Shown here: positions 23,829-26,729 of the stretch, piece after piece | Layout: each line of letters begins with the position of its first letter | How positions within the stretch are numbered: the stretch's first letter is position 1 | DNA from: Candidatus Geothermincola primus | GTDB taxonomy: Bacteria; Actinomycetota; Geothermincolia; Geothermincolales; Geothermincolaceae | Direction of reading: 5' to 3' | Length of the DNA: 43,296 nt | Assembly (NCBI GenBank): GCA_015711725.1 | Contig: JACVIX010000010.1 | Span: 1-43,296, forward strand | Program-made: the position numbers and the translations under genes | Notes under the pieces: model-generated | The model's input: only the letters and a program-made list of their open reading frames with translations | What the model was told of the DNA's origin: nothing | Database searches by the model: none

Positions 23829-24179
23829 GGGCAATTTATCTTAAAAGTAATCGGCTCTACAAACTTTATAACCTCAACCCGATATTTAGCTCTATATATA
23901 TTGGTCATACGCAAGATCGAAAGCGACATGCCGTCAAAACAGTCACCCCCAGCGAACCAGGGATAACTTGGTTGGGTTAGCACTCTTTACGTACCGCAAC
24001 CTCGAAATAGAGAGAAGACTCAGCAACCGCAGAAAAGAAAGTGATCCTCAAACTTCGCGAGAATCGCTTTCTAATAAATATCCCGCACCGACGAAGATGG
24101 CATAAGGGAAAATGCTTTTTAAGTTTGCTATGATCTTTTTTTACGCGCATTTTTATACCACTTGACTTTAACTCCCCGG
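23829..24179. other. Intergenic region, no gene
   Basis: AT-rich spacer. Only a small hairpin (AACCA 23955-23959, TGGTT 23969-23973) was noticed. No open frame or promoter is supported. Confidence 0.3.
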
Positions 24180-24525
24180 CTATTTATGAACCTTGCTTTT
24201 TCCGCCACAAACGGGACAGGTGATAACCTCGGTAATCTTTCCGGTTCCTCCGCACGCACCGCACGGTCGATACCTTCAGGTAGGGCTCCAACCAACCGCC
24301 ACACGCCTCACAAGTTTTAGTCAAATCTATTTTTCACTTCCCGCCGCATTTCGTGCAAGTGGTGTAGGCTGACCCTTGACTCACCGTGATGGTCACATGA
24401 GTTCCCTCGGGGAAGGAAGCTCCCTGAGCCAGGCTGCTGGCGCAAACCAAACCACGGGCGATGGATTCGGATAAACGCGGGCTACTTCCACATGAAAACC
24501 CAATTCATTGACGAGGGCCAGCTTG
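24180..24525 (-). pseudogene. Decayed gene with DnaJ-type zinc-finger motifs
   Basis: Reading the minus strand in joined frames gives a coherent protein: LALVNELGFHVEVA, shift near 24475, LSESIARGLVCASSLAQGA, EGTHVTITVSQGSAYTT, CTKCGGK, TGA stop (24334-24336), KIDLTKTCEACGG, shift near 24260, CGACGGTGKITEV, then CPVCGGKSKVHK and TAG. Four CxxCGG motifs match the zinc-binding repeat of DnaJ. The stop could be a single GGA-to-TGA change (CGGKG to CGGK-stop). Two frameshifts plus a stop indicate a dead gene. The N-terminal part does not look like a J-domain, so the ancestor was probably another zinc-repeat protein. Confidence 0.65.
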
Positions 24526-24571
24526 AGTCTCCGCCATCCCGATTACCGCAGGCATGATAGCCATATAACTG

Positions 24572-24580: not shown

Positions 24581-24622
24581 TGTTTCGATAACGCATTCTT
24601 ATCAAAAGGAGTTGAAAGAACT

Positions 24623-25012
24623 TTGAAAAGGCTCGCTTACATCAAATACATAACCCTACTATTGGCTTTAATAATAATCTTCGCAGGTTGCGGCAAGAAA
24701 GCCGATACTACCCCAGAAGGACGTAACGGTCAAGCAACCGACAAAGCGCAGCTGATTTTTTTCACCCAGCCCGGTTGAGGTCCCTGTATACCCGCTGAGG
24801 CCCTGGTGCAGGACCTGTTGAAGGAAATAAGGGACCAGGTGGATTACCTAAAGGTGGACGTTAGGAAAGACCCGCAGACCGCCAGAAAGTATAGGGTGCA
24901 GGCGACTCCAACCATAGTTATCCTGGACAAATCGGGCAGGTTGGTGAAGACGCTGGTGGGTGTGCCCACTTACGCTGAGCTAAAGGGCGCTGTAAACGAG
25001 GCAGTCAAATAA
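24623..25012 (+). CDS. Thioredoxin-like lipoprotein, probable selenoprotein (TGA = Sec at residue 52, U-G-P-C)
   Basis: 129 aa if the in-frame TGA at 24776-24778 is read as selenocysteine. TTG start with AAGGAG 11 bp upstream. Lipoprotein signal: K2R3, hydrophobic 9-20, lipobox FAGC with C23, so the domain lies outside the membrane. The thioredoxin fold follows: LIFFTQPG, then U52-G-P-C55, an IPAEALVQDLLKEI helix, DYLKVDV strand, cis-Pro96 in ATPTIVIL and a C-terminal helix. TGA replaces exactly the first cysteine of CGPC. The frame is otherwise intact on both sides. A 37-nt hairpin begins immediately after TGA (24779-24815). Standard callers would report only the part after residue 61. A plain nonsense mutation is the alternative, and the decayed gene next door keeps that open. 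It ends 5 bp from the convergent polyferredoxin gene. Confidence 0.65.
24779..24815 (+). promoter_or_regulatory. SECIS-like hairpin directly after the in-frame TGA
   Basis: GGTCC (24779-24783) pairs with GGACC (24811-24815). After a bulged C, TGTAT (24785-24789) pairs with GTGCA (24806-24810) using two G-U pairs. The ~16-nt apical part contains GCTGAGG and may close further with CC/GG. Size and position match bacterial SECIS elements such as that of E. coli fdhF, which is about 38-40 nt and starts right after UGA. Pairing was done by eye. Confidence 0.5.
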
Positions 25013-25017
25013 TTTGG

Positions 25018-25881
25018 TCAGGACTTCCCGCCCGCTCTCAGATTGGCTCCATTCCTGAAAAATCCAGAGGTTATCGCCTTCTCCGGACATGCTTTCTTGC
25101 ACTCCAAGCATCTGATACATTGGGGAGAGTTGGGATCTTGGAAGATATGGATATCCACGGGACAAACCCTCTTACATCTCCCGCAGCCCTCGCACTTAGA
25201 ATCATCGATGGCTAAGCGATAGAGGCTGAAGCGATTAAACAATCCCAGCATGGCCCCCAGAGGGCAGATCACCCTGCAGAAGGGACGTTTAGAAGCTACC
25301 ATCCAGGCGAGGAAGACACCCAATAGACCCAGTTTGAACCAGAAAAACCATCCCACGGGAGGAAGAGTAGCTTCCGGCGGCAGCAACTTCAAAGGGATGG
25401 CTCCCTCTAGCGCTCCCGCCGGGCATAGCCTGGAAAACCAGCTCACACCGGTTATTAAGGGAATTAGCGCCACCGCTATCATCAAGAAGAGATACCTCCC
25501 CCACCCCATCCAGCGGGGAAGACCCAGTTTCGTAGTGGGGATTTTGTATAGCATGTCCTGGAGTAGGCCGAAGGGACAGATCCAACCGCAGGGAAGGCGT
25601 CCAAGGATCGCCCCCACCAAGCCCACTGAGCCCAGCACGTAGAGAAGGGCTCCCCAAGCCTGGGCGAAGTAGGCCTTGGTCCTGGACGAAAAAAGGACAA
25701 AGGCTTGCTGTAAGCTACCGATGGGGCAGGAGAAGACGGCCAGTGGGCAAGCGTAGCAGTTTAGTCCAGGAACACATAAGTTCTTCAGCCAACCCTGGTA
25801 GATAGTCCTCGTGGAGAAATAAGAGAAATAAGGGTTGATGGCGAGTGCGCTTAAAACCTGGCTTACCCTCCGTGTGCGCAT
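25018..25881 (-). CDS. Membrane polyferredoxin, NapH/RdxA-like 4Fe-4S protein
   Basis: 287 aa with about four TM segments (74-95, 128-146, 178-196 and a weaker N-terminal one). Two CxxxCP motifs, C98-C102-P and C202-C206-P, are the signature of the NapH/CcoG/RdxA family. A further cluster C36, C42, C45, C52 lies near the N-terminus, and two [4Fe-4S] sets follow: C230/233/236/240 and C255/258/261/265. It would carry electrons across or along the membrane, often to an extracytoplasmic acceptor. The 5-bp convergence with a thioredoxin-like lipoprotein suggests, but does not prove, a shared extracytoplasmic redox role. No Shine-Dalgarno precedes ATG. TAATAT five bases upstream hints at a leaderless transcript. 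Confidence 0.85.
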   Translation of the reverse strand: MRTRRVSQVLSALAINPYFSYFSTRTIYQGWLKNLCVPGLNCYACPLAVFSCPIGSLQQAFVLFSSRTKAYFAQAWGALLYVLGSVGLVGAILGRLPCGWICPFGLLQDMLYKIPTTKLGLPRWMGWGRYLFLMIAVALIPLITGVSWFSRLCPAGALEGAIPLKLLPPEATLPPVGWFFWFKLGLLGVFLAWMVASKRPFCRVICPLGAMLGLFNRFSLYRLAIDDSKCEGCGRCKRVCPVDIHIFQDPNSPQCIRCLECKKACPEKAITSGFFRNGANLRAGGKS

Positions 25882-26729
25882 TTTCTATATTAGCCCGATA
25901 CAGTCGAGACAGATAATAACGGCATGGTATAAGACGGTGCGAGGTCCATCCCAAAACAAAGACAAAACTATCATTAGGGCAAAAAGAATTATCAGCAAAA
26001 GGGCTGGCTTAAATCTTTTTAAAAAGAGCAAGTTCTTTTCGCGCATTGTTTTTCATATTCTGGATGTGCCTTCTTATCCATTTTAACAAAACTTAGCTCA
26101 TTAAGACATAATGTCTTGTTTTTTCAAACACTTACACCTCGTCAGATAATTAAACAATCGTTAAGTAAACTTTATCCCACTCTTCTTAATTGTTTAAATG
26201 CCTAAGCATAAGCAAATATAGCTTCATGGGGCTATGGCCTTTGGTTGAGTTGATTCACTAACCAACGCTCAGCTTAAATTTCCCATGTGCGCCTCCTTAA
26301 AATATACAGTCCTCTATTCGTATATCCTAATTCTGCTAATGAAGAAGCGTTCTTTTCACCTGGAATCGCTTGGTCGCTAAGATATTCACAAAAATAATTA
26401 TATCAACGATTTATTATGCGCCACTTCTTCTGCTTCCCCAAGTTAAAGAAGGGGAACTATCAACGCGATATAACCGATCTCAATCACTTTAGTTCTCAGT
26501 AAAATTGATCCTCGCGTTAAGGAAACTCGTCAATTTTATAACCATTATGAAATACTCTCATGTAGATGGAAATCGAGTGAAAAACGTTACGGTGCCATCG
26601 TTCAGTGAAAACCATATCCGGGTTCTTCCCGCTTAGGTAAAACAATCGTTGTTTTATCAAAATCTCAGTTCATTATTGCCCATTTTCCTGCGCTCAACGC
26701 TGGCAACAGCGCAATCTATATTCTTAATT
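25882..26729. other. Long AT-rich intergenic region
   Basis: No supported gene on either strand. AAGAC/GTCTT hairpin (26103-26117, loop ATAAT) is followed by GTTTTTTC and could act as a plus-strand terminator, though no gene leads into it. TTGGTT and AACCAA (about 26244 and 26261) form a second inverted repeat. The 15-mer CGCGTTAAGGAAACT (26513-26527) also occurs at 20534-20548. Confidence 0.35.

Follow-up and report, generated by a model that had tools for sequence, protein, structure and literature searches.

A probable selenocysteine-containing thioredoxin lipoprotein in Candidatus Geothermincola primus and its relatives

Introduction

In the 43,296-nucleotide stretch of Candidatus Geothermincola primus DNA analysed here (the window), one reading frame would encode a thioredoxin-like lipoprotein, except that a TGA codon occupies the position of the first active-site cysteine. 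Is this codon a stop left by a nonsense mutation, or is it read as selenocysteine (Sec), as the original prediction proposed? Pipelines that take TGA as a stop would end the protein at residue 51 and drop its thioredoxin domain; for this reason, gene catalogues may lack a redox protein that is near-universal in the class and is also found in several relatives.

Results

The gene and its predicted product

The locus comprises the following elements:

24607..24611, plus strand: Shine-Dalgarno-like AGGAG, recognized from the sequence, 11 nt from the TTG start (a long spacing)
24623..25012, plus strand: coding sequence of the predicted selenoprotein, with lipoprotein signal, linker, and thioredoxin domain
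24776..24778, plus strand: in-frame TGA at the first cysteine of the CxxC motif, read as selenocysteine on the basis of the homolog alignment and the sel genes

A single frame runs from TTG (24623) to TAA (25012) and is intact save for the TGA; its translation is LKRLAYIKYITLLLALIIIFAGC-GKKAD...FFTQPG-U-GPC...ATPTIVILD...NEAVK. The N-terminus begins with basic residues, continues into a hydrophobic segment, and reaches a lipobox cysteine (LIIIFAGC), the features of bacterial lipoproteins, and the predicted lipid-bearing cysteine of the FAGC lipobox is residue 23. A lipobox is present in most homologs. The active-site motif is U52-G-P-C55 and TPT occupies residues 95–97. The intact frame, the TGA, the lipobox, the linker, and both of these motifs thus lie where the original prediction had placed them.

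The read-through protein scores 47.5 bits against the Pfam thioredoxin family PF00085 (cut-off 23.5) and 35.4 bits against PF13098 (gathering score 27), in the latter case with UxxC present. AlphaFold predicts a thioredoxin fold over residues 41–129 (pLDDT 96–98), in which U52 sits just ahead of helix 55–69, and the best PDB matches of the predicted structure are thioredoxins or thioredoxin fusions. By gathering score and modeled fold, the predicted product is a member of PF00085.

The signals upstream of the gene are less clear. An AGGAG is present ahead of the start, where a binding site had been proposed, but it lies rather far from the TTG. The extended -10 element that was said to accompany the binding site found no support, as a simple scan detected no sigma-70-like promoter upstream. 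Neither the window nor the SECIS stretch had a relevant match in Rfam. Further upstream, on the minus strand (~24130–24560), lies a decayed remnant of a DnaJ-type zinc-finger gene (CGACGGTGKITEVITCPVCGGKS), which is split over frames with stops and corresponds to the pseudogene noted in the original prediction.

The TGA codon in relatives

The homolog search took in 31 genomes of the class and found a direct homolog in 26 of them, at ~30–45% identity and with frames open on either side of the TGA or Cys codon. In the column of the first active-site cysteine, 21 of these 26 homologs carry TGA and five carry TGC or TGT, whereas no other stop occurs there. Moreover, each of the 21 TGA-type homologs has exactly one in-frame TGA, always in the identical alignment column. 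The replacement of a single CxxC cysteine, which had been taken as a mark of Sec, thus goes beyond what chance would give, and random stops and frameshifts were not found in the relatives. On the tree of homologs, at least five changes between Sec and Cys can be counted; the Cys form of genome G004, for instance, is nested beside the Sec form of G003. Approximately 27 further homologs with TGA at the same position come from distant classes and from a second in-class group; most have UPxC, and they carry a lipobox or are anchored in the membrane. Three loci of the second in-class group (L134, L135, and L136) encode a UxxC thioredoxin, with TGA and a hairpin, to which an N-terminal zinc ribbon and a transmembrane segment are fused.

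A sequencing error does not account for the TGA, given its recurrence in dozens of genomes that were assembled independently. Reassignment of the genetic code was also considered and was ruled out, because TGA is the normal stop of 12 of the 25 large open reading frames in the window.

A nonsense mutation was the caveat attached to the original prediction: the gene would be a pseudogene, like its upstream neighbor, and the decay of the adjacent zinc-finger fragment is in keeping with such a process. This explanation is countered by the occurrence of the identical TGA, flanked by intact frames, in many genera and in several classes, by its replacement by Cys alone, by the covariation of the SECIS element, and by the presence of selA in all TGA-type genomes of the class (see below). 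We consider it extremely improbable.

The SECIS hairpin

24799..24815, plus strand: predicted bacterial SECIS apical hairpin, supported by covariation, RNAalifold, absence in Cys homologs, and consensus fit

A SECIS-like hairpin had been predicted to start directly after the TGA. A hairpin that covaries and is absent in Cys homologs does exist, but it begins ~20 nt farther downstream. Its stem pairs 24799–24804 with 24810–24815 around the loop GGTGC (24805–24809), in which G-T at 24806–24807 is invariant, and the distance from the TGA to the loop is 26 nt. Covariation was scored in an alignment of 14 homologs that is gap-free from the TGA, where pairs 24-40 to 29-35 correspond to 24799–24815 of the window. 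Across these homologs, 92.9% of the stem cells are paired, double compensatory changes occur in five of the six pairs, and the covariation score is 0.451, compared with 0.166 for shuffled controls (0/500) and at most 0.154 for slid controls. G31 and T32 of the loop do not vary among them, and RNAalifold recovers the same stem unprompted. In the Cys homologs (n = 4), the stem pairs form in 45.8% of cells and no covariation was found. The published bSECIS model has G followed by G or U at the first two loop positions, 16–37 nt from the UGA (PMC13188914), and the hairpin agrees with it in both loop and spacing.

The case for the predicted SECIS is comparative and does not lie in the stability of the window's own hairpin. 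The latter contains one C.A mismatch, its stability is unremarkable (synonymous-shuffle p = 0.2), and the covarying hairpin is not seen in the global minimum free energy fold of the lone window sequence; a longer alternative fold that uses bases beside the TGA occurs in the window sequence alone. When protein and codon usage were held fixed, folding exceeded expectation in Sec copies (mean z -0.89) and did not in Cys copies (0.04), a difference that is supportive only, because the copies are related. In the sister subgroup with the motif WQPGU, the hairpin lies in a shifted register and its loop, CGTGCT, likewise has G then U; 88.1% of its cells are paired and double changes are absent, in a set of only six sequences.

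The selenocysteine machinery

The host genome (3.17 Mb, 99.7% complete) has selA, selB, selC, and selD, the four genes for which the original prediction had recommended a search. The tRNA-Sec (76 bits, anticodon tca), SelA (600 bits), and SelB (406 bits) are encoded in one cluster, with SelB and SelA side by side on contig C16. SelD is encoded on contig C18 and has a Sec codon in its own active site (UAAK), consistent with UxxK as a known Sec motif of SelD (PMC13188914). All TGA-type genomes of the class contain selA, and the gene is missing from the Cys-type genomes G001 and G018, which fits a loss of Sec in these two. Among the genomes outside the class with further TGA homologs, 22 of the 24 tested have selA; it was not detected in G118 and G061, drafts of 97% and 91% completeness, respectively. 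These two cases are possibly assembly gaps, because congeners are positive.

It could also be argued that the real product is a 51-residue lipopeptide ending at the TGA, or that a standard amino acid is inserted at this codon, given that the TTG start and the long Shine-Dalgarno spacing suggest weak expression. The conservation of the thioredoxin domain 3' of the TGA, the Cys found at this site in homologs, the SECIS structure, and the complete set of sel genes all speak against both versions, and such a product is very unlikely. The alternation of TGA and Cys, the sel genes, and the covarying SECIS together argue for a conserved selenoprotein and against a nonsense mutation, and the TGA at 24776–24778 is almost certainly decoded as selenocysteine.

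A NapH-like neighbor and a CxxC microprotein

Two genes on the opposite strand adjoin the predicted selenoprotein gene:

25018..25881, minus strand: NapH-like membrane protein that carries Fer4_5 motifs as well as two ferredoxin motifs of the [4Fe-4S] type, proposed electron donor
25885..26046, minus strand: 53-residue microprotein with one transmembrane segment and the C-terminal sequence ICLDCIGLI, encoded 3 nt ahead of the NapH-like gene, proposed as a relay through its CxxC

The selenoprotein and NapH-like genes stand tail-to-tail, 5 bp apart, and within the order this convergent pair is shared by all 10 genomes with this thioredoxin type. Of the 31 class genomes, 29 have one copy of the NapH-like gene, and the CxxC microprotein is strongly conserved (25 loci, the window included). 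The microprotein scores 25.7 bits against NF040920 (CD1871A), below the curated cut-off of 32. The domains DsbD_TM and DsbD_2, which represent CcdA/DsbD, were undetected in eight of the 10 pair-bearing genomes, i.e., the window's genome and seven of the nine others. The recurrence of the pairing and this lack of detectable CcdA/DsbD suggest that the NapH-like protein and the microprotein may supply electrons to the Sec-thioredoxin, and a ferredoxin-fed membrane route to it is plausible. The more detailed scheme, in which CcdA/DsbD-free transmembrane thiol reduction would proceed from the NapH-like [4Fe-4S] protein via the outward CxxC of the microprotein (ICLDCIGLI) to the lipid-anchored thioredoxin, is tentative, and we regard it as rather doubtful. 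Literature searches on CD1871A, and on a coupling of NapH to thioredoxin, turned up nothing.

The gene order is not uniform throughout the class. In the WQPGU group, the NapH-like gene is located elsewhere and was undetected in genome G007, while outside the order, class genomes encode a thioredoxin-like lipoprotein that lacks CxxC upstream of the NapH-like gene. For these reasons, the coupling of the two genes may be simply an inherited gene order. The CxxC-less lipoproteins, with GKSSKS as one example of their motif, were observed at loci L146–L150 and L152–L158.

Gene neighborhoods in other lineages

In other lineages, homologs of the Sec-thioredoxin have different neighbors. A CcdA-like gene follows the homolog at L129. 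Genes for TrxA and a metal-sensing repressor adjoin the homologs at L109, L110, L118, and L125 and lie near the homolog in the f24 group, and cytochrome genes are also nearby at L109, L110, and L125. These neighborhoods agree with an extramembrane redox role for the Sec-thioredoxin, as do two of the arrangements described next, at L131 and at L117, L122, and L123.

Several arrangements were noted in addition. At L117, L122, L123, and L126, two Sec-thioredoxin genes are close together, with a cytochrome-like gene between them in the first three. Bases ~276–980 of L131 encode a peroxiredoxin lipoprotein whose frame contains a TGA (FTPVU), and the gene of a Sec-thioredoxin lipoprotein follows immediately. 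At L113, the Sec-thioredoxin gene is followed downstream by a glutaredoxin-like gene with TGA (TTSTUPYC) and then by a thioredoxin-reductase-like gene.

The reductant of the predicted selenoprotein may be a carrier other than the NapH-like module, or the protein may act as an oxidase or isomerase. In favor of this possibility, homologs elsewhere adjoin CcdA (L129), TrxA and the repressor, the Sec-peroxiredoxin (L131), or the thioredoxin-reductase-like gene (L113), and the NapH-like gene is distant from the Sec-thioredoxin in part of the class. The invariable adjacency of the pair in the order and the infrequency of CcdA/DsbD among the pair-bearing genomes weigh in the other direction. On balance, we give another reductant or role slightly better than an even chance.

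Discussion

Proposed mechanism

Taken as a whole, the locus very probably encodes an exported, lipid-anchored Sec-thioredoxin whose UGA is decoded through SECIS and SelB and which would act as an extracytoplasmic thiol-disulfide reductase or exchanger. Sec decoding, the lipobox, and the thioredoxin domain are established at the level of sequence. The likely function is that of an extracytoplasmic thiol-disulfide (selenenylsulfide) reductase; the direction of the reaction and its substrates are inferred. According to this model, the SECIS within the coding region, ~26 nt after the UGA, would recruit SelB with Sec-tRNA(Sec), and the UGA would be read as Sec, the nucleophile in the first position of CxxC. 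The exported protein would cycle through the formation and reduction of a selenenylsulfide, and would serve as a reductase or exchanger for proteins outside the membrane. More speculatively, the NapH-like [4Fe-4S] protein encoded alongside and the CxxC microprotein could pass electrons to it across the membrane, a route that is proposed because no CcdA/DsbD was found in the genome.

Conservation of the predicted Sec-thioredoxin lipoprotein extends throughout a bacterial class that has been little studied and into the wider phylum. Its lipoprotein signal would place a Sec thioredoxin outside the cytoplasm, and the finding points to a testable membrane redox module, made up of the NapH-like protein and the microprotein, where CcdA/DsbD was undetected.

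Comparison with known systems

Sec thioredoxins of the UxxC type (PF00085; e.g., WP_010956703.1) include an experimentally verified entry (PMC13188914). The protein described here likewise has a thioredoxin domain with Sec first in the motif, but adds a lipoprotein signal and a linker. We take the verified Sec thioredoxin to be cytosolic. Against the thioredoxin equivalog TIGR01068, the predicted selenoprotein reaches 52.1 bits, short of the NCBIfam cut-off of 96.8. A second relative is the predicted Sec 'thiol:disulfide interchange protein' of family PF13098 (UxxC, WP_011366075.1; PMC13188914, PMC1794560), which was reported from a few deltaproteobacteria (Geobacter, Syntrophus; PMC1794560). 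Both proteins share the PF13098 match and UxxC, and are likened by domain and motif only. By the domain-plus-motif rule of these studies (PMC13188914; PMC1794560), the predicted selenoprotein is a UxxC thioredoxin. SaoT (NF040730, cut-off 65) is similarly a small UxxC selenoprotein with a thioredoxin fold; the window protein has no match to this model, and two distant homologs of the phylum score 23–25 bits.

No NCBIfam selenoprotein model matched above its cut-off, no equivalog exists there for a lipid-anchored Sec-thioredoxin form, and no paper on such a form was found in a literature whose coverage is incomplete. On these grounds, together with the score below the equivalog cut-off, the lipid-anchored, lineage-wide UxxC thioredoxin form seems new. 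The original prediction had called the protein unusual, which holds for this form, but not for UxxC Sec thioredoxins as such, since these were already known (PMC13188914).

The closest functional parallel is with thioredoxins of the ResA/CcmG type, which are also extracytoplasmic and membrane-anchored and share the thioredoxin fold; the reductase role of the present protein is the presumed part of the likeness. ResA/CcmG-type proteins are fed by CcdA/DsbD, whereas here no DsbD_TM or DsbD_2 domain was detected in the genome and the gene has a NapH-like neighbor instead.
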